A stretch of DNA of 24,268 bases, taken from IMG/VR virus record IMGVR_UViG_3300025108_006336, positions 1 through 24,268 of that record; one strand, written 5' to 3'. The position numbers were made by a program, and so were the translations under genes. Positions 1,359 through 16,462 of this stretch are shown piece after piece. How positions within the stretch are numbered: the first letter of the stretch is position 1; every line of letters begins with the position of its first letter. Origin of the DNA: a virus. Under the pieces are notes generated by a model that searched no databases, was not told the origin of the DNA, and worked only from the letters and a program-made list of their open reading frames with translations.

Positions 1359-2311
1359 TGATAAAGTGGTGGAAAAAAGGATATTTTGATGATTTAAAAC
1401 CTTTCGATATTTATCCTATAGAAAATTTTTTAGATAGATATAAAGGAGCAATAAGCACCTTTGAGGGGTACGATGAAATGGAATCAGAAGGCAGGTACTT
1501 TTTAGGTATTGAATCAGATAACCTTAATGATCCAGATGTAAAACATTTTAATAGTAAGTATAATAATATTAACTGCTCTATTCCTCAAAGTTCTGAACAT
1601 AAAATTTGCTTTGTATACAGTCAAGCTAGAAATTTTAATAGACCTGAATACCATACAGAAGAAAATATAAAATTTAAAGGAGGTACAACAAACTATAACG
1701 GTAGAGATGGCCAAATCCGGACAGGATGGTCTTCTCCTAAAATAGAAAACATACATATAAACCCAGTTAGAAAAGGACAGTTAACAGGAGATTGGATATA
1801 CTTAGAATTACCTCATGAATTATTTTATAGAAATACAATTAAAACCGGCAACGGTGCATCTATAAAACTAGCAAAAAAGTTTGTCAAAGAAGTAGAGAGT
1901 ACTGTCGGATGGGATAATATTGAAAAAATTAAAACAGTAATTAAAAAGTATGATAAAATAGACCCTGACTGGAGTCACGATTTTCCTATCAATGGATACT
2001 TTCAACTTAAAAAAGATGGATTACTATTTCCCGGTGTTTGGGACAAATACAACCTCATATGCGGGCATTCATACCATAGAATGATAATGACAAGTTTTAA
2101 TAAAATAAATTTTCCGTATATTCTTCCTGTACCTAAAGGTTTTGACGGATTATGGTATGCGTGTTCAAAATACGATTCGTTTACATTTAATAAGGAAGAT
2201 TACTACTTAGGAGTACAAATAGATACTAATAATAAAAATATTGAGTATACATTTACTAAAAATAAAAATTGGGCGAAACAAAAAAATACTAATAGGCTGA
2301 AAAATATATGA
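1358..2311 (+). CDS. unknown protein with WYAC motif, sugar-operon member
   Basis: I do not recognise a family for this 317-residue protein. The frame allows GTG at 1355 or ATG at 1358; I chose ATG because it gives a TGATG junction with the glycosyltransferase. There is no signal peptide or membrane span, and the N-terminus is rich in aromatic and basic residues (IKWWKKGYFDDL). The middle is soluble and charged. Near residue 235 is an LLFPGVWDKYNL...GHSYHRM segment, followed by LWYACSKYDSF. A similar WYAC-x(2)-(F/Y)-D-(S/T)-F motif occurs in the unknown protein at 5081-6490, also after an HPG/FPG element, so the two may be distant relatives. Its position implies a role in the same sugar pathway. 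Confidence 0.6.
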   Translation: MIKWWKKGYFDDLKPFDIYPIENFLDRYKGAISTFEGYDEMESEGRYFLGIESDNLNDPDVKHFNSKYNNINCSIPQSSEHKICFVYSQARNFNRPEYHTEENIKFKGGTTNYNGRDGQIRTGWSSPKIENIHINPVRKGQLTGDWIYLELPHELFYRNTIKTGNGASIKLAKKFVKEVESTVGWDNIEKIKTVIKKYDKIDPDWSHDFPINGYFQLKKDGLLFPGVWDKYNLICGHSYHRMIMTSFNKINFPYILPVPKGFDGLWYACSKYDSFTFNKEDYYLGVQIDTNNKNIEYTFTKNKNWAKQKNTNRLKNI

Positions 2312-3228
2312 AACCAATAACATATGCTTACTTAGAAACTACTAACTACTGTAACTTACAGTGTTCTTTTTGTAACAGAGATGAGGTTATAGGAGCATTA
2401 CAGCATATGCCGTTATCAAAATTTAAAAAGATGTTAGACGGGCTCAAACACCACCCTATAAAAGAAGCTAAGCTTATGGGAATGGGTGAACCAATGTTGC
2501 ATCCTCAATTTGACGAAGTATGTAAAACCTTTAAAGAGTACTTTCCGGAAGCCTTTCTTATAGTTGCTACTAATTGTCAATATAATATAGGTGAAGGTAG
2601 ACCACTAAGAAAGCGATTCAAAAACGCATTGCAATATATTGATTTACTTTACTTTTCAATTGATGGTTATGATAAAAGTTATGAAAGGGACCGTTCTCCT
2701 GCAAAATGGAGTAGATTACTGTCATTTTTAGGTGACTTTAAAGAAATAGATAGAAAAGGATGTAGAGTAACCTGTAATTATGTTGTAAATCCTGAAAACG
2801 TAACTGATATTCAGAGAGTAAGCGATGAAATTGTAGACGGTTACGGTTTAGAAGAATTACGTTTAAATATTGCACAGGATTGGAGTGAAGATAGAACACT
2901 TTCTGGAGGATATACTGCGGATCAAATTGAATACCTTAAAAAAAATTGGAAAGACAATATTAAAGGTAAAAGTGAATGGGATTTCCCTGATTGTTTTTGG
3001 GTTAAAGAAGGAATATACACAACAGTAGAAGGTCATGTTAAAATGTGCTGTCTAAACACAGGTGCTAAACCTTTTGGTAACTTATTTGAACAGACTATAG
3101 AAGAGATAAGAGAGACTAAAGACTATAACGCAGTAAGAACAGGGTGTAACACAAATAATCCAACCAGCCATTGCACTACCTGCTCATATAAAGAATTAGC
3201 TCCAATGTTAAAATTAATAAAAAATTGA
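2308..3228 (+). CDS. radical SAM enzyme with SPASM-like C-terminus
   Basis: This 306-residue protein has the canonical radical SAM CxxxCxxC motif at C15-C19-C22 (YCNLQCSFC), which binds the 4Fe-4S cluster that cleaves S-adenosylmethionine. A GMGEP element follows near residue 60 (SAM-binding GGE-type loop), and a YFSIDG strand sits near 115. The C-terminal part has a cysteine set typical of a SPASM/Twitch auxiliary cluster: C in DCFW, CC in KMCCLNTG, then GCNTNN...CTTC. Length and layout fit a complete enzyme. SPASM proteins modify peptides, sugars or other small molecules by radical chemistry. Among sugar-handling neighbours a sugar dehydratase, epimerase or dehydrogenase role is plausible but not shown. 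Start and stop overlap both neighbours by 4 bases. Confidence 0.85.
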   Translation: MKPITYAYLETTNYCNLQCSFCNRDEVIGALQHMPLSKFKKMLDGLKHHPIKEAKLMGMGEPMLHPQFDEVCKTFKEYFPEAFLIVATNCQYNIGEGRPLRKRFKNALQYIDLLYFSIDGYDKSYERDRSPAKWSRLLSFLGDFKEIDRKGCRVTCNYVVNPENVTDIQRVSDEIVDGYGLEELRLNIAQDWSEDRTLSGGYTADQIEYLKKNWKDNIKGKSEWDFPDCFWVKEGIYTTVEGHVKMCCLNTGAKPFGNLFEQTIEEIRETKDYNAVRTGCNTNNPTSHCTTCSYKELAPMLKLIKN

Positions 3229-4088
3229 AAAAAGCAAAAATAGCAATTTTACTTCATGGGATGCTTAGATCCTGGAAAGAATGCAGTACTTGTTTTTCTT
3301 ATATAGATACATTGTACGAAGATGTAGAGTTTGATTTTTATCTAGCAACATGGGAAGATACTAATAGAGTACCTATAAATAAAGGACAGCATGAAAATTT
3401 TTCAGACAATAAATTTTTAAAGTTAAAAAAATATAAACTTTATACTGAAAAAGAAATGATTGACAATATGGCTGTTTCTCCTAAAAATCATTTCAAAAAA
3501 GATTTAGATAATAAAAGATTTACCGCTCCATATAGTTTTCTTAAGCAAAAAGTAGTCGAACTAGCTAGTTTAAGTAAAATCGAATACGATGCTTGTATTT
3601 TAACTAGGTCCGATGTCTTTATTTACAAAGAACTACTCGACACAGTTAGACTATCTACTATATACAGTAGATTTGATTTAGTACCTGAAGAAGAAAACCC
3701 CTGGATGTATAATCAATTAGGAGATAACATAGTTTATAATTCCACAGGTACACGTTATGAAAATACGTCTCTTTTTGTTCCTAGAGATTTACTTTGGTAC
3801 GGTAATCAAAAAGCTATATTTGAACATAGATCTTTTTTTGATGATAGTTATAAATTTTGTAAACTTTCACCACAAGGTATTCATGGATATAATGCTAGTT
3901 GGTTACATTTCAAAAAACTTTATAACTGCAAAATGGAAGCAAAAGACTGTGTTATAGTAAGAGCAACAGAAATAAATAAAAAAAGAGGTGCACCTGATAA
4001 ATTACAATTAATGCAAACGATAGAAAAATACGGGAAAAATATCTATAACACACCTCTCAAGATATTACAGCAAAAAATGTGGACTTAA
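3225..4088 (+). CDS. glycosyltransferase-like protein
   Basis: The gene starts with TTG at 3225, giving a TTGA overlap with the previous stop. The next in-frame ATG (about 3258) would remove the first beta strand, AKIAILLHGMLRSW, so TTG is preferred. The 287-residue protein opens with a strand and an (L/S)G-x-(L/F)R/Y element. It has a DFYLATWED segment near 40-45 and an ILTRSDVF segment near 125, resembling the 'RxD' part of phage and bacterial surface-glycan glycosyltransferase-like proteins. The protein at 9943-10608 has the same order: an opening strand with G-F/M-L, then D-x-x-x-x-(S/T)W, then a lysine/arginine-PDL/SDV element. I infer a GT-like role in this operon, with no direct evidence of activity. 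Confidence 0.55.
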   Translation: MKKAKIAILLHGMLRSWKECSTCFSYIDTLYEDVEFDFYLATWEDTNRVPINKGQHENFSDNKFLKLKKYKLYTEKEMIDNMAVSPKNHFKKDLDNKRFTAPYSFLKQKVVELASLSKIEYDACILTRSDVFIYKELLDTVRLSTIYSRFDLVPEEENPWMYNQLGDNIVYNSTGTRYENTSLFVPRDLLWYGNQKAIFEHRSFFDDSYKFCKLSPQGIHGYNASWLHFKKLYNCKMEAKDCVIVRATEINKKRGAPDKLQLMQTIEKYGKNIYNTPLKILQQKMWT

Positions 4089-4089
4089 A

Positions 4090-5106
4090 ATGAAAAAACA
4101 TCTCAAAAACATATACAGAAAGAATAATCAAGAGGATAAAACCAAATTTAAATATATTCTAACTCAGAATGAAAGAAATTACCCTATTGCACATGAGTTA
4201 CTAGATGAATTTTTTAACTCACTAACACAGACAGACCTTACTTTTTACCCTAATACTGAAATTCTAAAATCTAAAATATGTGATTACCATAACATAGAAA
4301 AAGAAAATTTACTTTTAACTCCTGGTTCTACATTTTCTATCAAGACAATTTTCGAAACATTCGATGTCAAAGGTAATAACGTTATTACTTCAGATTATAA
4401 TTTCCCTATGTATCAAGTATATAGTGATCTGTACGAAGTTGAACTAAGAAAAGCTAAGTATAGGAGTATGAAACTCGATATTCAAGACCTACTTTACCTT
4501 ATAGACGGAAATACAAAGTTTATTATTTTAGCTAATCCAAACTCACCATTAGGTGATTTATATACAGAAGAAGAGATAAAAGTACTTCTTAACACAGGAA
4601 TACCAGTAGTTATAGATGAAGCGTACATAGAATTTACCGGTCAAGATAGCTGTATGCACTTAATACAAAGCTATCCAAATTTAATAGTAACTAAAACATT
4701 TTCTAAAGCTTATGGTGCTGCTGGATGTAGAGTAGGATTCATGGTTAGCAGTAAAGAGAAAATGGAATATTTTTCTAAATTTAGAGCTATGTACGAAATT
4801 AACGGTATCGGAGCAAAGTATACTGAGTTTATATTAGATAATATTCAAGACTATAATAGTTATATCAATAAAACATTTAAAAATAAAAAAATAGCAATAA
4901 AACAACTAAAAAAAGCAGGTCACACAATAATTGATACCGATGCTAGTTGGTTTTTCTTGAAAAGATGGGATAAAGAAGATAATTTAAGAAAGTTTAACAA
5001 GATTGGTATGACTTTTAGAACCTTAATCCTACCAGACGGAATAGAATATATCAAATTTAATTACGATTTAAAGTTACATTATGATCACGACAACCCTTTC
5101 AAGTAA
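4090..5106 (+). CDS. PLP-dependent aminotransferase (class I/II, HisC-like)
   Basis: The 338-residue protein is a fold-type I aminotransferase. It shows LTPGSTFSIKTIF near 76-88 (phosphate-binding loop), NPNSPLG at 149-155 (cofactor and substrate contact), VVIDEAY at 173-179 with the Asp that pairs with the pyridine nitrogen, and TFSKAYGAAGCRVGF with the Schiff-base lysine at 206 and an arginine at 214. The arrangement is that of histidinol-phosphate or threonine-phosphate-type aminotransferases, slightly shorter than the usual 350-360. Beside sugar enzymes it probably installs an amino group on a keto-sugar or keto-acid intermediate rather than making histidine. One base separates it from the previous gene, and its 3' end overlaps the next gene by 26 bases. 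Confidence 0.85.
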   Translation: MKKHLKNIYRKNNQEDKTKFKYILTQNERNYPIAHELLDEFFNSLTQTDLTFYPNTEILKSKICDYHNIEKENLLLTPGSTFSIKTIFETFDVKGNNVITSDYNFPMYQVYSDLYEVELRKAKYRSMKLDIQDLLYLIDGNTKFIILANPNSPLGDLYTEEEIKVLLNTGIPVVIDEAYIEFTGQDSCMHLIQSYPNLIVTKTFSKAYGAAGCRVGFMVSSKEKMEYFSKFRAMYEINGIGAKYTEFILDNIQDYNSYINKTFKNKKIAIKQLKKAGHTIIDTDASWFFLKRWDKEDNLRKFNKIGMTFRTLILPDGIEYIKFNYDLKLHYDHDNPFK

Positions 5107-6490
5107 AAAAATATTAGATACTGTATTTGAGTCTACTGATGTATACCACTGTAATAATTTCGAACCTTCTTGGGCTCTTACTGCATACGGAAGAGACTAT
5201 AGGCTACTGCTTAACGGTATGAGGTTTGAACACCTATACTCAACTAATGGTTTTGTAAGTAGCATAAATCAGTATTGTACTGAACCTAGTAGAGTGATGG
5301 AGTTTATTACATATAATGATCAACCCTCAACCTTAAGACATAGGTTAAACATGATCGATACTTTAATTAGTAATGATATGAAAACAAACCTTCCAACTCA
5401 TATTAGTATAGCACCTAAATTTCAAGGAGAAGAAGTAGATATACAGGATTTATTTTTTAATCCTACAAAATATAAGATGGTTGTGCACCCCGGGTTTACT
5501 AGAATGAATGGAGCTATTTTTCTTAACACTCCTTTACGAAATGTTCTGATACATATTAATAAATCACATAACGTACAATTTGCAAAACATCCTTCACTAC
5601 AGAAAATAAATTCTAATGAAGAACTATTTGAGTTTTATAAACCCTTTACTGACAATGATAGTTACAGGATAGATTTCTTCGTACCTAATAAAAACCCAGA
5701 AATTGATAAATGGACTATCGAAGGAACGAAGTATCACGAAGGTACTAAGACTCCTGTGTTAAAATGCAATAAAATATCAATAGAGCCATATAGCAATGAA
5801 GCTAAAGACTCTGTTCATCCATCTGATTGGTATGCCTGCAGTACATTTGATACTTTTAACTCTTACTGTAATACACTATTCAGCAATAAAATCAAAGTAT
5901 ATACCCCACAGGGTTCAGTTCATATAATACATAATATGCTTGCTGATAATATAATAAAGTTCAGCACCGAATATTTAGGAAAACATGACATTATTTCAGG
6001 AAAAATTATACGTAGTAATGGCAATAATGAACAATTCTTTGCTGTTGATGATATACATAATTCAACAAACCTATCTAAGGAAAAGATAAGTTTCTATAAT
6101 AGATTTACTGAACCCTTGAAAGATTTTCATAAAAAACGTAAAGAAGAAGACTTACCTCACCCTTTCATAAATCACCGGGCACCTGATTATATAAAAGACA
6201 GCACAGAACTAGAACCAAAAGAAGAAGAGTTAATAAAGGATAAAAAGTTTCTTAAGACATTAGTAGAAAAAAATAAATTTAAAGGACTATTAGTTATTTT
6301 TTCTAGAGAGTTTATAAAAGAAAAAACTCATAGAACTTTTTCTGAAATACTAATGTGCATGAGTCCAACATCAGCAGTTACTAGAAAAGCTAATAGTAGT
6401 GTAGTACTAATTAACTGTAATCACGAGTTTTGGTCTACCGGTGCTAACTATACTGATAAAATTATACCAAAAAGTTTTTTTAAAATATGA
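5081..6490 (+). CDS. unknown 469-residue protein, sugar-operon member
   Basis: This starts at an ATG 26 bases inside the aminotransferase gene, the longest overlap in the operon. I do not recognise the family. It is soluble, without signal peptide or membrane segments. A MVVHPGFTRMNGAIF stretch near residues 145-159 vaguely recalls the 'V-x-x-G-x-x-R' turn of ParB/sulfiredoxin-like folds. A DWYACSTFDTF motif near 245 resembles one in the protein at 1358-2311. The C-terminal part (about 340-430) is rich in lysine and glutamate and ends in a hydrophobic strand (SSVVLINCNHEF). Codon use matches its neighbours. Function unknown; context suggests a role in the sugar pathway. Confidence 0.6.
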   Translation: MITTTLSSKKILDTVFESTDVYHCNNFEPSWALTAYGRDYRLLLNGMRFEHLYSTNGFVSSINQYCTEPSRVMEFITYNDQPSTLRHRLNMIDTLISNDMKTNLPTHISIAPKFQGEEVDIQDLFFNPTKYKMVVHPGFTRMNGAIFLNTPLRNVLIHINKSHNVQFAKHPSLQKINSNEELFEFYKPFTDNDSYRIDFFVPNKNPEIDKWTIEGTKYHEGTKTPVLKCNKISIEPYSNEAKDSVHPSDWYACSTFDTFNSYCNTLFSNKIKVYTPQGSVHIIHNMLADNIIKFSTEYLGKHDIISGKIIRSNGNNEQFFAVDDIHNSTNLSKEKISFYNRFTEPLKDFHKKRKEEDLPHPFINHRAPDYIKDSTELEPKEEELIKDKKFLKTLVEKNKFKGLLVIFSREFIKEKTHRTFSEILMCMSPTSAVTRKANSSVVLINCNHEFWSTGANYTDKIIPKSFFKI

Positions 6491-7320
6491 AAACCATAGG
6501 ATTTTTAACACCATATAAACACTTGCCAGAATTTAGTAGATATGTTAAGAGCAATTTTAAATGTATTGATATGGTTGGCTTACCAAAAGATAAGCTAAAT
6601 ATTTTTAAAAGTGTAGATTATTTATTTGCAGCTCCAAATTATCTTAAATATATTATAGAGCAAGAAGATATAGAAGGATCAAACATAAAAGGAATAATAA
6701 CTCCTTCTACTGGCGACAATCATATAAACGTCTCTATACCGGTTATCTCTATAAAGAATGATACCATATTAGAAGAAATATACTCTACCGCAGAGCATAA
6801 CTTATACTTATGTTTAGCTTTACCTCGGCAAGTTGGGAATATAGTTGAACTTAAAGAAAAAACTTTAGGTATATTAGGGTACGGTAGGTTAGGAAAAATT
6901 CTAGAAAAAATTACTAAGCCGTTATTTAAAAAAATAGTAAAAGCAGATATTAATTTTATTGATGATGATTTCTTTTTTGATTCAGATTTTCTTTCTATCA
7001 ATATAGACTATAAAAAATCTAATATTGATTATATAAATGCAGAATTCGTTGGTAAATTCAGAAAAAATATCTATATTGTAAATACTAGCCGTGGTGAAGT
7101 AGTTAATGAAGTTGATATAATAAAGCAAATTCACGATGGTAAAGTGCTTGGATATGCTACCGACGTAATCAAAGAAGAGCATACACCGGTTTGCACTGTA
7201 CTTAAAGATAATAATGATAAAAGGTTACTGAGAACACCCCATATTGGAGGTACAGCAATAGAAGCACAAGAAAAAGCTTATAAAAGAGTTATAGAGAAAG
7301 TATATGAAAATAATATCTGA
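6487..7320 (+). CDS. D-2-hydroxyacid dehydrogenase (SerA-like)
   Basis: The 277-residue protein has the Rossmann signature GILGYGRLGKIL at about 128-139 (GxGxxG). It also has the family's IVNTSRGEVVNE element with the substrate-binding arginine at 202, a GYATDVIKEEH stretch carrying acidic residues at 226-231, and LRTPHIGGTAIEAQ with the catalytic histidine at 252. These are the standard Arg/Glu/His residues of D-isomer-specific 2-hydroxyacid dehydrogenases, which interconvert 2-keto and 2-hydroxy acids with NAD(H). It is 30-50 residues shorter than usual. The N-terminal substrate domain is shorter than in phosphoglycerate dehydrogenase, and there is no ACT domain. Its start overlaps the previous stop by 4 bases. 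The substrate may be a keto-acid sugar, given the NeuB-like neighbour. Confidence 0.85.
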   Translation: MKTIGFLTPYKHLPEFSRYVKSNFKCIDMVGLPKDKLNIFKSVDYLFAAPNYLKYIIEQEDIEGSNIKGIITPSTGDNHINVSIPVISIKNDTILEEIYSTAEHNLYLCLALPRQVGNIVELKEKTLGILGYGRLGKILEKITKPLFKKIVKADINFIDDDFFFDSDFLSINIDYKKSNIDYINAEFVGKFRKNIYIVNTSRGEVVNEVDIIKQIHDGKVLGYATDVIKEEHTPVCTVLKDNNDKRLLRTPHIGGTAIEAQEKAYKRVIEKVYENNI

Positions 7321-8137
7321 GTTATGTCAAAATCACAACGGTGATAGAGATTTATTAGAAAGAATGGTTAAAAATGCTGCGGTATGTAGCGATATAGTTA
7401 AAATACAGTCCATTAAAGCTAATACATTTACTTACAGAAAGGAGTATGAAGAATATAGACCATACGAACCAGAGTTTGTTAGGTTGAAAGGTTTAGAGTT
7501 ATCTAGAATAGATGAAGAGTTCTTTATCTTTAAATGTATGGAGTATGGAGTTGAATCAATGACTACAGTTTTTGTACCTCAACACGCTCCTAGGTTTAAC
7601 GAGTTAGGTTATGATAACTTAAAACTATCAGGTTACTCTATTCCAGCTTTTGATTACGGTAAAAAGTTAAAAAACTTTAAGTTTAAAAGATTATTCTTCT
7701 CTACCTCTAGTTTAACTATAGAAGAGATTAAACAAACTGTTAATAATCTAAATGAAATGGGAATTGAGTACTATATGTTACAATGTACCTGTGTATACCC
7801 TACCCCTTTATCTAAACTTAATTTACAGAATATAGAATATTTTCGTAACGAACTTGGAGTCAAGAATGTTGGGTTAAGTGATCACACTAATCCTCATGAA
7901 GATAATTTACTATCTTCTAAGTTAGCTATATTTCAAGGTATAGATGTTATAGAGAGACATTTTACAGTTCTTGATATAGATGATACTCGAGATGGTAAAG
8001 TATCTGTCACTCCTAAAATGATGTCAGAGATAAAAAGATTTAGTACCTTATCAAAAGATGATCAGTATCGTGAACTTAACCAGTTTGACGAACAACAAAT
8101 ATTTAATCACGATTATTATAGAGGAAGGTTCAAATGA
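7304..8137 (+). CDS. NeuB-like sugar acid synthase
   Basis: This encodes 277 residues related to N-acetylneuraminate synthase (NeuB/SpsE). That family condenses phosphoenolpyruvate with an aldose to give a nine-carbon 2-keto-3-deoxy sugar acid. Visible signatures are the start SELCQNHNGD (E-x-x-x-NH-x-G), VKIQSIKA (the VKFQ strand), YYMLQCTCVYPTP near 160 (LHCTS-x-YP), VGLSDHT near 185 and IERHFT near 212 (EKHFT). This is the complete TIM-barrel core, but the C-terminal antifreeze-like (SAF) domain of standard ~340-350-residue NeuB proteins is absent. It overlaps the dehydrogenase gene by 17 bases and the HAD-nucleotidyltransferase gene by 4. It is the strongest pointer to a nonulosonate-like product. 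Confidence 0.85.
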   Translation: MKIISELCQNHNGDRDLLERMVKNAAVCSDIVKIQSIKANTFTYRKEYEEYRPYEPEFVRLKGLELSRIDEEFFIFKCMEYGVESMTTVFVPQHAPRFNELGYDNLKLSGYSIPAFDYGKKLKNFKFKRLFFSTSSLTIEEIKQTVNNLNEMGIEYYMLQCTCVYPTPLSKLNLQNIEYFRNELGVKNVGLSDHTNPHEDNLLSSKLAIFQGIDVIERHFTVLDIDDTRDGKVSVTPKMMSEIKRFSTLSKDDQYRELNQFDEQQIFNHDYYRGRFK

Positions 8138-9507
8138 GCAGTATAAAATTAATAGTATTTGATTTAGATGGAGTTTTAGTTGAAGCAAAAAATATACATT
8201 TTGATGCTCTCAATGAAGCTCTAACAAAAGTTAATCCTGGATTCAAAATAGGCTGGACTGAACATTTAAATAAATACGATGGGCTAAAAACATCTCAAAA
8301 GTTAGAATTACTTACACAAGAAAAAGGCTTACCGTCAGAGATACATAATCAAGTTTGGAAAACTAAACAAGAATTGACTGTACGTAAGTTAACTAACCTT
8401 AAACCTAATAGAGAATTAGTAGCTACTATTAAACTTCTCCATAACGAAGGGTTTAAGTTAGCTGTATGTTCTAATTCTATAAGAAGAACCTGTTTAACAG
8501 TTTTAGCTAAGTTAGAACTAATAGAGTATTTAGATCTTATTATATCTAACGAAGATGTAACTAACAGTAAACCACATCCTGAAATGTATTGGAAAGCAAT
8601 TTCTGTAATGAGTATGTTACCGGAAGAAACTTTGATAGTAGAAGATTCTCCGTACGGTTTATTAGCTGCTGCAAGAAGTAAGTCGTATATTTTAAGAGTT
8701 AAAAACCCAACAGAGGTTACATATAATAATATTATGGATAAAATTAACACTATAGACAACGGAGAAAAACAAACAACACCAGCCTGGAGAGATAAAAACC
8801 TAACAGTTTTAATACCTATGGCAGGAGCAGGAAGTAGATTTGAACAAGCCGGGTATACTTTTCCTAAGCCTCTTATAGATGTCAAAGGTAAACCTATGAT
8901 TCAGGTGGTGACTGAAAATTTAAATATAAAAGCTAATTTTGTGTATGTAGTACAGAAAGCACATAGAAAGAAGTATAACTTAGATACTCTGTTAAATTTG
9001 ATAACTCCTAAATGTAAGATAGTAGAAGTAGAAGGGGTAACAGAAGGAGCAGCTTGTACAGCATTATTAGCGAAAGAATATATTAATAAAGACAAACCTC
9101 TCTTCTTTGCAAATTCAGATCAATTTGTGGAATGGGATAGTAATGAGTTTTTGTATAAGATGAACGAAACAGAGGCAGACGGTGGGATAGTAACATTTAA
9201 AGCTACACATCCTAAATGGTCTTTTGCTAAAACTAATGAAGAAGGATTAGTCACAGAAGTCGCAGAAAAAAATCCTATATCTAATACAGCAACTGTTGGG
9301 TTCTACTACTGGAAAAAAGGTTCTGATTTCGTTAAGTATGCTGAAGAAATGATTAAGAATAATATTAGAGTAAATGGTGAGTTTTATGTATGTCCTGTTT
9401 TTAATCAAGCTATAAAAGATAATAAACAGATAAGAATATTCAATGTCGATAACATGTGGGGACTAGGCACACCAGAAGACTTAAAATATTACTTAGAAAA
9501 TATTTAA
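8134..9507 (+). CDS. HAD phosphatase - sugar nucleotidyltransferase fusion
   Basis: This is a two-domain protein of 457 residues. Residues 1-205 are a HAD-superfamily domain of the beta-phosphoglucomutase type, with FDLDGVL (D10 nucleophile, D12 acid/base), CSNS near 112-115, SKPHPE with K146 and VEDSPYG with D171. Residues 223-457 are a GT-A nucleotidyltransferase of the RmlA/GlmU type, with MAGAGSRF near 229-236 (LAGGxGxR), FPKPLIDVKGKPMI (essential lysine) and a FFANSDQFV strand carrying the catalytic-site aspartate. It could dephosphorylate one intermediate and activate another sugar phosphate to an NDP- or CMP-sugar, next to the NeuB-like enzyme. An SD-like GGAAGG lies just upstream but falls in coding sequence, so its role is unclear. 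Confidence 0.85.
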   Translation: MSSIKLIVFDLDGVLVEAKNIHFDALNEALTKVNPGFKIGWTEHLNKYDGLKTSQKLELLTQEKGLPSEIHNQVWKTKQELTVRKLTNLKPNRELVATIKLLHNEGFKLAVCSNSIRRTCLTVLAKLELIEYLDLIISNEDVTNSKPHPEMYWKAISVMSMLPEETLIVEDSPYGLLAAARSKSYILRVKNPTEVTYNNIMDKINTIDNGEKQTTPAWRDKNLTVLIPMAGAGSRFEQAGYTFPKPLIDVKGKPMIQVVTENLNIKANFVYVVQKAHRKKYNLDTLLNLITPKCKIVEVEGVTEGAACTALLAKEYINKDKPLFFANSDQFVEWDSNEFLYKMNETEADGGIVTFKATHPKWSFAKTNEEGLVTEVAEKNPISNTATVGFYYWKKGSDFVKYAEEMIKNNIRVNGEFYVCPVFNQAIKDNKQIRIFNVDNMWGLGTPEDLKYYLENI

Positions 9508-10967: not shown

Positions 10968-12692
10968 ATGGCAGAAACTATAATCTCCCCAGGTGTATTT
11001 ACAAGAGAAAACGATATCTCTTTTGTAACACCAGCACCAACTGAAGTCGGAGCATGTATAATAGGACCAACAGTTAAAGGGCCGGTAGAAATACCAACTA
11101 CTGTTACTTCCTATAATGAATATGTAAGAGTATTCGGAGATACATTTGAATCAGCTTCATCTAAACAAGAATTTTTAACTTCTATAGCCGCTAAGAATTA
11201 TTTTTCTCAAGGAGGAAATAACTTATTAGTAGCAAGAGTAGTAAATGGAACATTTGCAGGAGCAAGTAACACTCATATATCAGCTTCAGCATATGGAAGT
11301 TCTCAACCTTTCGAATTAGAGACTCTTGGTAAAGGAGTAATCTACAATAACGCTACAGGTTCTATACAAGCACAAGGAGAACATAATACCGATTCATCTA
11401 TCGTATCTGGATCAAGTGATAATTTGAGATGGGAGATCTCAAACGTAAACAATTCTAAAGGTACTTTTACAGTTTCTGTAAGAAGAGGAGATGATAGCTT
11501 GAAAAATAAAATAGTTCTAGAAACATTTAATAATGTAGATCTAGATCCTAACTCACCTAACTATATTGAAAAAGTAATTGGTAATCAAAGAGTTGCAATA
11601 TCTGCAGAAAACGATAACATCGTTACTTCTGGGGAGTATGTAAATAAATCAAAATACATTAGAGTTAGTTCTGCTAGTCTTACTACTATCAACTATATTG
11701 GTAATAACGGACAAATAAGAGTTAACGCAGCTTCTAGTTCATTACCTATAGCACAATCTGGATCATTCTACGGGGCTACAGGAAATATTGTTAAAGCTGG
11801 AATGAACTTTAACGATAATATTGCAGCTGATACTCAAGGATTAGGAGTATCTGATTATAGTAACGTAATTACATTACTTAATAATTCAGATGACTTTAAA
11901 TTTAATGTTGTATCTGCACCAGGTATAGTTGATAATCATCACGGTGCTACAGTCGATAGTTTAATTGACTTAGCTGAAAGCAGAGGAGACTGTATTGCAG
12001 TAGTTGATTTATATGCTCATGGAGCTTCAGTAGCAAATGTAACTGGTCAAGCAGACACTTTAAATAGTTCTTATGCAGCAGCATACTGGCCTTGGTTACA
12101 AACTGATTCAGCAACAGGTAAGAATGTATGGGCACCAGCTTCAGCATTTATTCCTGGAGTATATGCATTTACAGATGGAGCTAACGCACCATGGTTTGCA
12201 CCAGCAGGATTAGTAAGAGGAGGATTAGCAGGAGTTATTCAAGCAGAAAGAAGATTATCTCGTACACAAAGAGATTCTTTATATGATGCTAAAGTTAACC
12301 CAATAGCTTCTTTTCCAGGAACAGGTATAGCAGTATTTGGTCAAAAGACCTTACAAACTAAATCTTCAGCATTAGATAGAGTAAATGTAAGAAGATTATT
12401 AATAGACTTAAAAGAGTTTATTGGTAACCAAGCACAAAACTTAGTATTCGAACAGAATACAGTAAATACAAGAAATAAATTCTTAGCAGCAGTTAATCCA
12501 TACTTAGATTCAGTAGTACAGAGACAAGGTCTTTATGCTTATAAGGTAGCTATGGATGACAGTAATAATACAGCAGATGTAGTAGATAGAAACCAGTTAA
12601 TTGGTCAAGTATTTATACAACCAGCTAAAACAGCAGAATTTATAGTACTAGACTTCACAGTTGAACCAACAGGGGCATCTTTTGGAGCATAA
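10968..12692 (+). CDS. 18: tail sheath protein (gp18-like)
   Basis: This 574-residue protein is the contractile tail sheath, which polymerises around the tail tube and shortens to drive DNA delivery. The N-terminus (SPGVFTRENDIS) and the GACIIGPTVKGP strand are typical sheath starts. The C-terminal third has the most conserved block: SFPGTGIAVFGQKTL at about 443-457, then SALDRVNVRRLLIDLKEF, then FIQPAKTAEFIVLDFTVEP near the end, which forms the interlocking strands of the sheath core. The T4 protein is about 660 residues, so this version lacks some outer domain. It is the first gene after the sugar operon, has its own leader with two promoter-like motifs, no Shine-Dalgarno and ATGGCAG at the start. 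It is followed by tube and a terminator. Confidence 0.95.
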   Translation: MAETIISPGVFTRENDISFVTPAPTEVGACIIGPTVKGPVEIPTTVTSYNEYVRVFGDTFESASSKQEFLTSIAAKNYFSQGGNNLLVARVVNGTFAGASNTHISASAYGSSQPFELETLGKGVIYNNATGSIQAQGEHNTDSSIVSGSSDNLRWEISNVNNSKGTFTVSVRRGDDSLKNKIVLETFNNVDLDPNSPNYIEKVIGNQRVAISAENDNIVTSGEYVNKSKYIRVSSASLTTINYIGNNGQIRVNAASSSLPIAQSGSFYGATGNIVKAGMNFNDNIAADTQGLGVSDYSNVITLLNNSDDFKFNVVSAPGIVDNHHGATVDSLIDLAESRGDCIAVVDLYAHGASVANVTGQADTLNSSYAAAYWPWLQTDSATGKNVWAPASAFIPGVYAFTDGANAPWFAPAGLVRGGLAGVIQAERRLSRTQRDSLYDAKVNPIASFPGTGIAVFGQKTLQTKSSALDRVNVRRLLIDLKEFIGNQAQNLVFEQNTVNTRNKFLAAVNPYLDSVVQRQGLYAYKVAMDDSNNTADVVDRNQLIGQVFIQPAKTAEFIVLDFTVEPTGASFGA

Positions 12693-12731: not shown

Positions 12732-13217
12732 ATGGCAGTATTAGACCCAAATGAAATAATGTTCAGAGCTTTTGAGCCAAAGGTGCAAAACAGGTTTGCC
12801 CTTTTTATAGACGGTATTCCATCGTTTATGGTAAAGAATGTAAAAGCTCCGAGCTTTACTGACGAAGTAATAAAGTTAGATCATATTAACTCTTATAGAA
12901 AAATTCGTGGGAAAAGAGAATGGCAAGATATGGATCTTGTATTATATGATCCAATCACACCTTCTGGAGCACAAGCAGTAATGGAGTGGGCTCGTTTATC
13001 ATACGAATCAGTAACCGGTAGAGCTGGTTATTCAGATTTTTATAAAAAAGACTTAACACTTAATGTTCTTGGACCTGTAGGAGACATTATAGGTGAATGG
13101 GTAATGAAAGGTGCCTTTATTCAAACAGCAGACTTTGGTCAGTATGACTGGTCTAGTTCTGAAGTAGTTGACTTAAATATGACTATTTCAATGGACTACT
13201 GTATATTGAACTTCTAA
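12732..13217 (+). CDS. 19: tail tube protein (gp19-like)
   Basis: The 161-residue protein is the inner tail tube subunit, the same length class as T4 gp19 (163). Visible family features are an N-terminal FEPKVQNRFALFIDGIPSFM strand, the VKAPSF loop near 38-43, the WQDMDLVLYDPI strand near 64-75 and a GPVGDIIGEWVMKGAF beta hairpin near 113-128. It assembles as hexameric rings on the baseplate, guided by the tape measure protein, and is surrounded by sheath. It follows the sheath gene directly, as in most T4-like phages, and precedes a strong terminator, so sheath and tube probably form a highly expressed unit. No Shine-Dalgarno is visible; the leader is A-rich. Confidence 0.93.
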   Translation: MAVLDPNEIMFRAFEPKVQNRFALFIDGIPSFMVKNVKAPSFTDEVIKLDHINSYRKIRGKREWQDMDLVLYDPITPSGAQAVMEWARLSYESVTGRAGYSDFYKKDLTLNVLGPVGDIIGEWVMKGAFIQTADFGQYDWSSSEVVDLNMTISMDYCILNF

Positions 13218-13329: not shown

Positions 13330-14055
13330 ATGGAATCACAATTTAAAATACCCACAGAAACAGTACAATTGCCTTCAAAAGGCTTATTATACCCAAAAGA
13401 TTCTCCCTTAAGTAAAGGTGAAGTAGAGATGAAGTATATGACAGCTAAAGAAGAAGATATTCTTACAAATAATAATTATATTTCAAACGGTACAGTTATT
13501 GATAAACTGCTTCAAGCATTGATTATTACAGAAGGAATTAATTTTAATGATCTTTTAATAGGAGATAAGAATGCTATTATGATAGCAGCAAGAATACTAT
13601 CTTACGGTAAAGACTACGTTTTTAATTTTGGAGGTAAAGAGTATACAGTAGATTTAACTGGATTAAAAAATAAAGAAGTTGATATTAAAGAAGGTAAAAA
13701 TGAATTCGAATTTACTTTACCTAAATCTGAAAATAAAGTAACTTTTAAATTTTTAACTCATAAAGACGAAAGAGAGATAGAGAATGAAATGAAAGGTCTT
13801 AAAAAGTTAAATAAAGACAGTAGTACTGAAACAACAACAAGGCTTAAACATACTTTAACTTCAGTTAATGGTTTAGTAGAAAAAAAAGATATTAGAGAAT
13901 TTGTAGATAAGTACCTATTAGCAGCAGATGCTAGAGCACTTAGAAAATTTATGGTTACTGTAACTCCGGATGTAGATTTAGTATTTTATCCGGACGGCGT
14001 GTCGGGGGGCGTTGACTTGCCGATAGGCATAGGGTTTTTTTGGCCTGACGTCTAG
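13330..14055 (+). CDS. 26: baseplate hub assembly protein (gp26-like)
   Basis: The 241-residue protein matches gp26-type proteins of T4-like phages. It starts with FKIPTETVQLPSKGLLYP, continues with a MKYMTAKEEDILTN block and ALIITEGINFNDLLIGD, and ends in LPIGIGFFWPDV; FFWP is the usual gp26 C-terminus. In T4, gp26 acts in baseplate hub assembly. By position before the tape measure gene it may correspond to the tail assembly chaperones of other phages. The last ~25 codons are unusually G+C-rich (CCG, GGC, GTG, TCG, GGG) compared with the rest of the gene. They run into a T7 tract where the downstream gp51 reading frame, lacking a start codon, takes over in +1. A fusion product is likely made by frameshifting. 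Confidence 0.85.
   Translation: MESQFKIPTETVQLPSKGLLYPKDSPLSKGEVEMKYMTAKEEDILTNNNYISNGTVIDKLLQALIITEGINFNDLLIGDKNAIMIAARILSYGKDYVFNFGGKEYTVDLTGLKNKEVDIKEGKNEFEFTLPKSENKVTFKFLTHKDEREIENEMKGLKKLNKDSSTETTTRLKHTLTSVNGLVEKKDIREFVDKYLLAADARALRKFMVTVTPDVDLVFYPDGVSGGVDLPIGIGFFWPDV
14031..14043 (+). other. candidate +1 programmed frameshift site (gp26 to gp51)
   Basis: In the gp26 frame the codons are GGG-TTT-TTT-TGG, and AGGG stands 3 bases before the second TTT. Slipping from UUU to the overlapping +1 UUU within the T7 run (14035-14041) moves the ribosome into GGC-CTG-ACG and the gp51 frame. This resembles the prfB site (AGGGGG-TAT-CTT-TGA): an SD-like element, 3-base spacer, a P-site codon that can re-pair in +1 and a slow A-site codon (here UGG). 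Upstream, TCGG and CCGA around 14002-14023 can pair, as can TGAC/GTCA just downstream. A -2 slip would reach the same frame. Confidence 0.6.
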
Positions 14056-14290
14056 TCATAGAACTGCAATATTCACTCAAATACATGAAATAGTATTTCA
14101 CGGTAACGGCGGTTATACTTGGAGTGAAGTGTATAATATGCCCATATGGTTGAGAAAATTTACTTTTCAAAAAATACAAGAACATTTTGATTCTTTAGCA
14201 GAACAAAATAAAACTAAAAGTCCTAAAAAGAAAAAAACCTTTGGACCTGATATAAAACCATCCTTTACAGCAAAGGCGTCTAAAAAATAG
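14033..14290 (+). CDS. 51: gp51-like hub assembly protein, expressed in +1 frame of gp26
   Basis: After the TAG at 14030-14032 this frame is open to the TAG at 14288-14290, about 85 residues. It reads GLTSSHRTAIFTQIHEIVFH, then GNGGYTWSEVYNMPIWLRKF and a lysine-rich tail. The IHEIVFHG...YNMPIWLR block is typical of the gp51-type baseplate hub proteins that follow gp26 in T4-like phages. No ATG, GTG or TTG precedes that block; the first ATG (in YNM) would cut off the conserved part. It is therefore most simply the C-terminal extension of a gp26-gp51 fusion made by frameshifting near 14035-14041. A CTG start at 14045 or a sequencing indel in the T7 run are the alternatives. Confidence 0.7.
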   Translation, partial: GFFGLTSSHRTAIFTQIHEIVFHGNGGYTWSEVYNMPIWLRKFTFQKIQEHFDSLAEQNKTKSPKKKKTFGPDIKPSFTAKASKK

Positions 14291-14323: not shown

Positions 14324-16462
14324 ATGGCAGAAGAATTTAAAGGCTTATCGCAAGAACAAATCGATAAAATTGATCAGTATAAAGCTAGTGCAGCAGAAAT
14401 CTATAAAAGCTATAGTGATATTAATGCACAACTTAAAGACGCGGTTGGTGCGCAAGACAAACTTGGAATTGGACAATTTAGATCTGTTAATATTACAAAG
14501 GATATTGCTAAACTACAGAAAGAAGCTATAAGCTCTACTAAAGCTGTAGCTAATTTAGAAAAAAAGAAAAGTGAAGAACTTGCTAAAGTAGTAGCATTAG
14601 AAGCCAAAAAAAATAATTTACTTATTAAAGCAGCCGGTACTTCTGGTAAAGTAAAAGAATTATTTTTAAAACAAGCAGAAAATCTAGCAAATGCAGCTGA
14701 TCAAGCTAAATTCATGGCTGAAGCCATTGGAGAAGTACAAAAAGATGCAGCTAAATTAAATAATTCAACTAAATTTTTTACTAGTCTATCCTCTGTTATA
14801 GGAGACATCCCAGGACTCCGTAAACTTTCCGGACCATTTGATGCCGCTGCAAAAGCATCAAAAGAAGCAGTCCTTAGTAACGCTAAGCTCAAAAAAGGAT
14901 CTAAAGATATGAAGAGTCCTTTTGCTGCTGGAATGAAAGGATTTGGAAAAAGTTTAAGCGGAATGGCTAAAGCTTTTGGTCCAGCCGGTATTATAGCAAC
15001 AGCATTAAAATTAATTTTTGAAATACTTAAAGGAGCGAATGCACAAGCTGTTGATTTAGGTAGGTCAATGGGGACTAGTGTACAAGAAGCTGATAATCTA
15101 CGTGCACGATTTGTAGGTGTAAGAAAAGGTATCGGTGAAAGTAGAGCTAACTTAGATTACTTAATTGAAGCACAAAAAGACCTTAACTCAGAATTTGGAG
15201 CAACATTTGGAGCATCCCAAGATATACTTAACTCTCAAACATTTCTTACAAAAAGATTAATGATGAGCAGCAATGAAGCTGCAGGACTTAATCTAAGAAT
15301 GAATGCAACAGGAGAAGCAGCATACGGTACTCTAGAAAATATTAATAATTTAAATAGAAGCTTTGCTCAAACCAATGGTTTTGGAATGAGTATGAAACAA
15401 CTTATGGGGCAAGTTGCTGGAGCTACTGGTCAAGTTGCAGCCTCATTTGGTTTTTCTAACGAAGCTATAGCAAAAGGAGTACTTCAAGTAAGAAGATTTG
15501 GAGTAAATTTACAACAAGCTTCTAATGTAGCTAGTAATTTATTAGATTTTGAACAATCTATAGGTGCTGAACTTGAAGCAGAACTATTAACAGGACAGCA
15601 ATTTAACTTAGAAAGAGCTAGAGCTAAAGCCGCAACCGGAGATATAGCAGGAGCAACAGCAGATGTATTATCTCAAATGCAGAATTTAACTGCTGAACAG
15701 AGAAGAAGTCCTATTATAATGGAAGCAATAGCTAAAGCAACAGGATTATCAGCAGATGAACTACAAAAAGCATACCTTATACAGGGTAATAATAAAGTAG
15801 CAGCTGAGGAATACTACAGAGTATTAAGAGAAGGAGATAAACAAGCCATTGAAGACTTTAAAACTAAATCAGGATTAGATAAAGCAACTATGGCTCAAAT
15901 AGAAGCAAGAAAAACATTAGAAGAAGATTTTGCTGAGGCAATGAAAGACTTAAAACAACAATTTGTAGGCTTAGCCAAAGGTGGTACTTTACAAAGTTTA
16001 GGTGCCTCGTTAAAAAAATTAATTAAGTTCATAGGTTTCTTGACCGGTACAAATCTAAGTATCGATGAAAAAAAGAAAATAGCAGACTTAGAAAAGAAAG
16101 GAATGTCTTCCGAAGAAGCTAGAAGATTAGCAACAGCCTCATCTGGACCAGGAGTTATGGACTATTTAGGACTTATGAGCCCTGGTGGACTTATTAACCT
16201 TCAGATGAAAAAGAAAAACGCAGAATTTGCTAATAAAAAAATTGCTGCAAATATGGCACTGCCAGATGTAATTAAACCTGATGATTTTACTATAAGACAA
16301 AATCCAAAAGATACTTTAGTAATGGCTGGTGGTACTCAATTTGGTAAAGAAACAAACGGATTACTTAGACAGCTTATATCAGCTGTAGAAGGAGGAAAGG
16401 TAATAAATTTAGAAGGTAGAAAAGTAGGTGAAACATTAGTAATGTCAAGCTATAAAAGTTAA
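14324..16462 (+). CDS. 29: tape measure protein (gp29-like)
   Basis: The 712-residue protein is probably the tape measure, which sets tail length and passes through the tube. It has a long alpha-helical, coiled-coil N-terminal half rich in Ala, Lys and Glu (about 1-190), then a glycine/alanine-rich hydrophobic stretch near 205-240 (FGKSLSGMAKAFGPAGIIAT, then ALKLIFEILKG) that could interact with membrane. Helical repeats continue to about 560. A conserved-looking C-terminus includes DTLVMAGGTQFG near 660 and GGKVINLEGRKVGETL near 690, typical of tape measure ends. T4 gp29 is 590 residues, so this predicts a somewhat longer tail if scaling holds. Its position directly after gp26/gp51 supports the call. 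Sequence similarity in such proteins is low, so gp29 is a positional name. Confidence 0.82.
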   Translation: MAEEFKGLSQEQIDKIDQYKASAAEIYKSYSDINAQLKDAVGAQDKLGIGQFRSVNITKDIAKLQKEAISSTKAVANLEKKKSEELAKVVALEAKKNNLLIKAAGTSGKVKELFLKQAENLANAADQAKFMAEAIGEVQKDAAKLNNSTKFFTSLSSVIGDIPGLRKLSGPFDAAAKASKEAVLSNAKLKKGSKDMKSPFAAGMKGFGKSLSGMAKAFGPAGIIATALKLIFEILKGANAQAVDLGRSMGTSVQEADNLRARFVGVRKGIGESRANLDYLIEAQKDLNSEFGATFGASQDILNSQTFLTKRLMMSSNEAAGLNLRMNATGEAAYGTLENINNLNRSFAQTNGFGMSMKQLMGQVAGATGQVAASFGFSNEAIAKGVLQVRRFGVNLQQASNVASNLLDFEQSIGAELEAELLTGQQFNLERARAKAATGDIAGATADVLSQMQNLTAEQRRSPIIMEAIAKATGLSADELQKAYLIQGNNKVAAEEYYRVLREGDKQAIEDFKTKSGLDKATMAQIEARKTLEEDFAEAMKDLKQQFVGLAKGGTLQSLGASLKKLIKFIGFLTGTNLSIDEKKKIADLEKKGMSSEEARRLATASSGPGVMDYLGLMSPGGLINLQMKKKNAEFANKKIAANMALPDVIKPDDFTIRQNPKDTLVMAGGTQFGKETNGLLRQLISAVEGGKVINLEGRKVGETLVMSSYKS

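Follow-up and report, generated by a model that had tools for sequence, protein, structure and literature searches.

The locus described here very probably encodes a tail assembly chaperone in two lengths, of which the longer would be produced by a +1 slip of the ribosome on a run of T's; sequence comparison strongly supports +1 ribosomal frameshifting in this chaperone gene. A sequence-only reading of the same DNA had proposed that such a shift joins a second domain to a gp26-type protein, at a place preceding the tape measure gene, and relatives bear this out, with the +1 phase found at 254 of 254 overlapping loci and the T-run kept. The novelty lies in the +1 direction of the shift, across a large group of T4-like phages associated mainly with Flavobacteriales, and in a GGAGG element ∼31 nt upstream of the run.

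Two overlapping frames in a T4-like tail module

The window, by which we mean the whole viral contig of 24,268 nucleotides that was analysed, contains a T4-like tail module in which all of the features discussed lie on the + strand. A tail sheath gene (10968..12692; Pfam PF04984, E=4e-15; phrog_23, E=9e-75) and a gp19-like tail tube gene (12732..13217; phrog_4542, E=3e-25; PF06841, E=1e-4) are followed by a gp26-like ORF (13330..14055) and then by a probable tape measure gene (14324..16462), so designated from its position and from the tape measure annotation in the related phage Immuto. Between the tube and tape measure genes sits a pair of ORFs that differ in phase. The first, TAC-N, the short form of the putative chaperone, has 241 aa and the C-terminus GIGFFWPDV. 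The second, TAC-C (14042..14290), which would form the C-terminal extension of the long form, lies in the +1 frame directly upstream of the tape measure gene, begins GLTSSHRTAIFTQIHEIVFHGNGGYTWSEVYNMPIWLRKFTF and is present in all overlapping relatives. Upstream of the tail module, positions 2308-9507 encode radical SAM/SPASM, class I/II aminotransferase, 2-hydroxyacid dehydrogenase and NeuB-family synthase proteins and a HAD-nucleotidyltransferase fusion; this block of sugar/amino-acid metabolism may serve surface-sugar or capsid decoration.

The end of the gp26 frame reads ATA GGG TTT TTT TGG CCT GAC GTC TAG, with the stop at 14053-14055. In the +1 frame, a TAG at 14030-14032 is followed by GGT TTT TTT GGC CTG ACG, and the frame remains open from 14033 to the TAG at 14288-14290. 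Its first ATG, GTG or TTG is the GTG at 14129, the next being the ATG at 14138, and both lie within the conserved block WSEVYNMPIWLR; the earlier description of a +1 frame that opens after the upstream TAG and has no start before its conserved block was accurate. Past the gp26 stop, differences between relatives in the +1 frame fall mostly on third positions (5383, 3052 and 12971 at first, second and third positions respectively; 1117 pairs), which identifies this frame as selected coding sequence. Both products had been thought to look functional, and both are indeed under selection.

In the mechanism that we propose, most ribosomes would read TAC-N and terminate at 14053. A fraction would stand over 14038..14043, with peptidyl-tRNA-Phe on the second TTT (14038-14040) in the P site and TGG, a codon read by a single tRNA and perhaps slow, in the A site. 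The tRNA-Phe would then slip one base forward to re-pair with TTT at 14039-14041, and translation would resume with GGC CTG ACG, from the GGC at 14042, to give a long form of 319 aa (...LPIGIGFF-GLTSSHR...). On the model of lambda gpG/gpGT, the short form, in many copies, and the long form, in few, might coat the tape measure protein and recruit tube subunits. Recoding the run as TTCTTCTGG would be expected to abolish the slip.

TAC-N matches phrog_150 (E=1.5e-12), and T4 gp26 (7e-71) and T4 gp51 (3e-84) each match the same family along their length. T4 gp51 is therefore a complete long form and not an extension alone; the name gp51, given earlier to the second frame, is misplaced, because that frame corresponds only to the C-terminal extension. 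Since direct hhalign comparison of the window profile with single T4 gp26 or gp51 sequences found nothing, kinship with the two T4 proteins is drawn from phrog_150. For the AlphaFold model of TAC-N (pLDDT 90), the best solved matches, modest ones over residues 1-97, are 3klu (Z 5.9) and 2ob9 (Z 5.0), with the next at 2.2, Z values below 8 not being proof. These two structures, YqbN and HK97 gp13 respectively, have been described as phage tail assembly chaperones (PMC9603447). The model of TAC-C is poor (pLDDT 65) and gave no fold match, and a PDB sequence search returned no chaperone. Taken together, family, fold and position suggest that the locus has a chaperone role; we found no virion proteomics of phage Immuto in the literature. 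The second domain occurs once per genome in each of the 10 phage records searched, and frameshifting is therefore the only evident route to it.

Conservation of the phase and of the slippery run

Relatives were compared as 145 representatives, which are below 85% identity, and as a set of 177 at 95% identity; for codon choice, the codon usage of the same genes served as the yardstick. Initial scans yielded 160 loci at which the two parts are adjacent, 158 of them in +1 phase and 2 as separate genes, and two further scans of viral contigs extended the overlapping loci to the 254 given above. Outside the split-gene forms, only L168 overlaps in a different phase (-1); it comes from a distant jumbo-phage relative, and its match to the second part has E=0.28. 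The run itself (14035..14041), read as TTT TTT T in the gp26 frame, is TTTTTTT in 126 representatives and TTTCTTT in 16 (142/145 together), the remainder being TTCTTTT (2) and TTTCTAT (1). A slippery YTT followed by T is present in 176/177, and the three main variants (TTT T, CTT T and TTC TTT T) all keep +1 pairing. The runs of L003 and L163 (TTT CTA T) are at odds with slippage on the second codon and would require a slip on TTT C.

In most of the distant members found in bacterial assemblies, with identity as low as 35%, TTTTTTTGGCCT and the +1 phase persist; over the same range most members have TTTTTTTGGCC in +1 phase, an exception being L273 with TTT TTT TTC. Rhodothermus phage RM378 has TTTTTTTGG (TTT TTT TGG) with a +1 ORF. 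Similarly, the second ORF is in +1 phase in Bacillus phage SP-15, Listeria phage LIS04 and Streptococcus phage GXN1, at TTT C or TTT A. By itself TTTTTTTGG is unremarkable in the AT-rich window (3 found versus 0.9 expected); the pattern goes beyond chance because phase and T-run are kept in 254 relatives and codon usage does not explain them.

Codon choice indicates that selection at the run acts on bases, not only on residues. Where the slip codon encodes Leu it is CTT in 16/17 cases, against a usage of 19% (p ∼3e-11), and where it encodes Phe it is TTT in 128/128, against 85% (p ∼7e-10); the Phe codon that precedes it is TTT in 143/145. The base before the run (14034) is C or G in 140/145. 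A T is found there in 2 representatives, whereas codon usage predicts 78, and it never precedes T7, so that T TTT TTT, the -1 signal of homologous cyanophages, is absent among the representatives. Downstream, the A-site codon is TGG in 138, TAC in 6 and TTC in 1 of the 145, and GGCCTGAC follows the run because both frames code there (WPD and GLT).

Alternative explanations and the split-gene relatives

A ribosome that slips by -2, as in Mu, would enter the identical frame and add one extra Phe at the junction. A P-site codon on TTTTTTT can fully re-pair on a -2 slip as well, and Mu tail chaperones do use -2 (PMC5009743). The variant runs nevertheless make this improbable: in the CTT T variants (22/177 at 95% identity) pairing is kept only on a +1 slip, and TTC TTT T likewise allows full re-pairing only on +1. 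In addition, L066, in which the genes are split, reads AFFGLTPE, the length given by +1.

Considerably less probable is a reading in which the second frame forms a gene of its own with an unusual start, possibly coupled to gp26 termination. Split genes do occur among the relatives (L063, L066, L261 and L266), and CTG is common as the second codon of the +1 part (138/145), but it is missing in L100 and RM378. Moreover, 62/145 representatives have no ATG, GTG or TTG between the upstream stop and the run, and the lack of Shine-Dalgarno sites at starts in these genomes also argues against a separate start. A start of its own would not preserve the T-run, and the T-run is lost where an ATG is present.

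The split-gene lineages serve as natural controls. Downstream of the gp26 stop, L063, L066/L070 and L261/L266 carry an ATG dedicated to the second protein. All four lineages have a broken run (TTCTTC, TTCTTG or TTCCTT), although the gp26-type protein keeps FFWP, FLYP or FLWP at its end. TTTYTTT is found in 170/177 overlapping loci versus 0/4 split loci (Fisher p=8e-6), L261 and L266 being sisters and the four therefore not fully independent. In the gp26 tree, split forms are nested in frameshift clades and the split state must have arisen at least twice, which makes that state the derived one. The GGAGG element is absent from L063 and L066; L261 has the residues EEG but the codons GAA GAA GGA, and L266 retains the element. 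In L063, gp26 and the second chaperone gene are separated by a GIY-YIG homing endonuclease that has a NUMOD-like domain (L063:4790-5410).

Slippage of RNA polymerase on the T-run, giving mixed mRNAs that encode both forms, is marginally less probable again. T7 is a homopolymer, which favours that reading, but seven T's are fewer than is usual for polymerase slippage, and about one-eighth of relatives interrupt the run (TTTCTTT, TTCTTTT) and yet stay in +1 phase. Finally, although one homopolymer indel would give a like pattern, a sequencing error or broken gene is hardly credible, because the pattern recurs in Immuto, a cultured phage, as well as in hundreds of contigs, the TTTCTTT and TTCTTTT variants exclude a homopolymer miscount and the second frame is under purifying selection. 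Four contigs that are identical over gp26 have seven T's in each.

Upstream elements and comparison with known systems

In the window, AGGG (14031-14034) does lie 3 bases before the second TTT, as had been pointed out. Aligning the gp26/gp51 loci upheld the conservation of phase and T-run but not that of AGGG, which is found at this position in 7/145; GGG at -9..-7 is present in its place in 76/145. A G-rich element lies further upstream, GGGGGG at 14004..14009 in the window (-31..-26) and a purine-rich GAGGAGG in the consensus of the relatives (-33..-27, next to window 14002-14009). GGAGG is found within 60 nt upstream of the run in 97/145, against a gene body rate of 0.5% per 20-nt window, and in about half of the representatives it lies ∼31 nt before the run. 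Synonymous constraint on the element is strong, the Glu codon at -30 being GAG in 80/84 versus a usage of 16%. Known Shine-Dalgarno stimulators act at a spacing of 3 nt (prfB) or about 10 nt (dnaX-type), and GGAGG at ∼31 nt is too distant for either geometry.

Shine-Dalgarno sites are not enriched at starts in these genomes (17/509 versus 14 in shuffled sequence), in keeping with hosts such as Flavobacterium, in which the anti-Shine-Dalgarno is occluded (PMC8710568); help from a Shine-Dalgarno interaction in Bacteroidota-type hosts is doubtful. Internal initiation from GGAGG was considered and rejected, as in many relatives the +1 frame contains a stop at -5 or -11, which separates element from run. 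No RNA structure was found near the site, the RNAalifold consensus having a fold energy of 0 and z values, upstream and downstream, of -0.6 to 0.1. We suggest tentatively, as a possibility on the unlikely side, that GGAGG (∼31 nt upstream; commonest place 26 nt before the T-run), GGG at -9 and C/G at -1 together form a new long-range +1 stimulator for ribosomes with a hidden anti-Shine-Dalgarno, acting for example via a trailing or collided ribosome.

Of the prfB-like signal proposed earlier, the slippery YTT T stands, whereas the AGGG spacing does not; nor is the A-site codon a stop. CTT T, the form used in prfB (RF2), occurs in about one-tenth of the window relatives. The prfB site has an A-site stop and a Shine-Dalgarno 3 bases upstream and is autoregulatory; in contrast, the window group has TGG and no conserved Shine-Dalgarno and is not autoregulatory.

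A review (PMC5009743) covers shifts of -1, -2 (Mu) and +1 (HSTV-2) in tail chaperone genes. The archaeal myovirus HSTV-2 very likely uses +1 at the equivalent gene (PMC5009743), a likeness of gene and direction alone. Lambda gpG/gpGT and P2 E/E' are alike in position before the tape measure gene, in the proposed two-length logic and perhaps in chaperone-like fold, but they use a -1 shift, unlike the one proposed for the window. The idea that a T4-like counterpart would unify the two systems is not new. As cited in PMC12846349, the chaperone genes for tail assembly in T4-like phages, and the frameshifting in them, had been reported in 2022 (Vladimirov, Gautam and Davidson, Virology). The cyanophage and alphaproteobacterial T4-like phages that we checked carry -1 sites. 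The abstract of the 2022 report is said to state that frameshifting is kept in several T4-like groups and that T4 uses the separate genes 26 and 51. These T4 genes belong to the same family and supply a short and a long form, both as separate, complete genes. Within the open-access literature searched, no +1 counterpart in T4-like phages came to light.

By profile positions, the second part is in -1 phase in P-SSM2, S-PM2, Cr30, phiM12 and HTVC008M, at T TTT TTC or T TTT TTT. The -1 chaperones of T4-like phages (Kyanoviridae P-SSM2 and S-PM2; phiM12, Cr30 and PhiW-14) likewise join a phrog_150 N-terminal part to a short C-terminal part with a similar MPW/MPF-type motif, frameshift-fused before the stop. 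The Kyanoviridae-type sites (T TTT TTC or T TTT TTT) shift by -1, some with GGAGG ∼10 nt upstream, whereas in the window group the shift would be +1, no T precedes T7 and GGAGG lies ∼31 nt upstream. In two jumbo-phage relatives, Xanthomonas phage XacN1 (L169) and LR756511 (L168), the second part follows T TTT TTT and T TTT TTC in the -1 phase, and polarity has therefore changed within the family.

One homologous chaperone family would thus reach its long form by three routes: -1 (cyanophages and others), +1 (the window group) and separate genes (T4, and more than once in the group, in one case with a homing endonuclease between the genes), so that the evolution of frameshift polarity can be traced at base resolution. 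The group also offers hundreds of natural candidate +1 sites with neither a stop codon nor a Shine-Dalgarno of the prfB type, in hosts whose anti-Shine-Dalgarno is reportedly hidden. Present annotations overlook the long form: for Flavobacterium phage Immuto 3-5A, GenBank has only a 37-aa hypothetical protein at the C-terminal extension (L001:3854-3964). Family phage contigs are also binned to archaeal (Woesearchaeota), Halobacteriovorax, WOR-3 and Methylococcaceae assemblies (L276, L280, L281 and L282), host assignments that may be binning errors.
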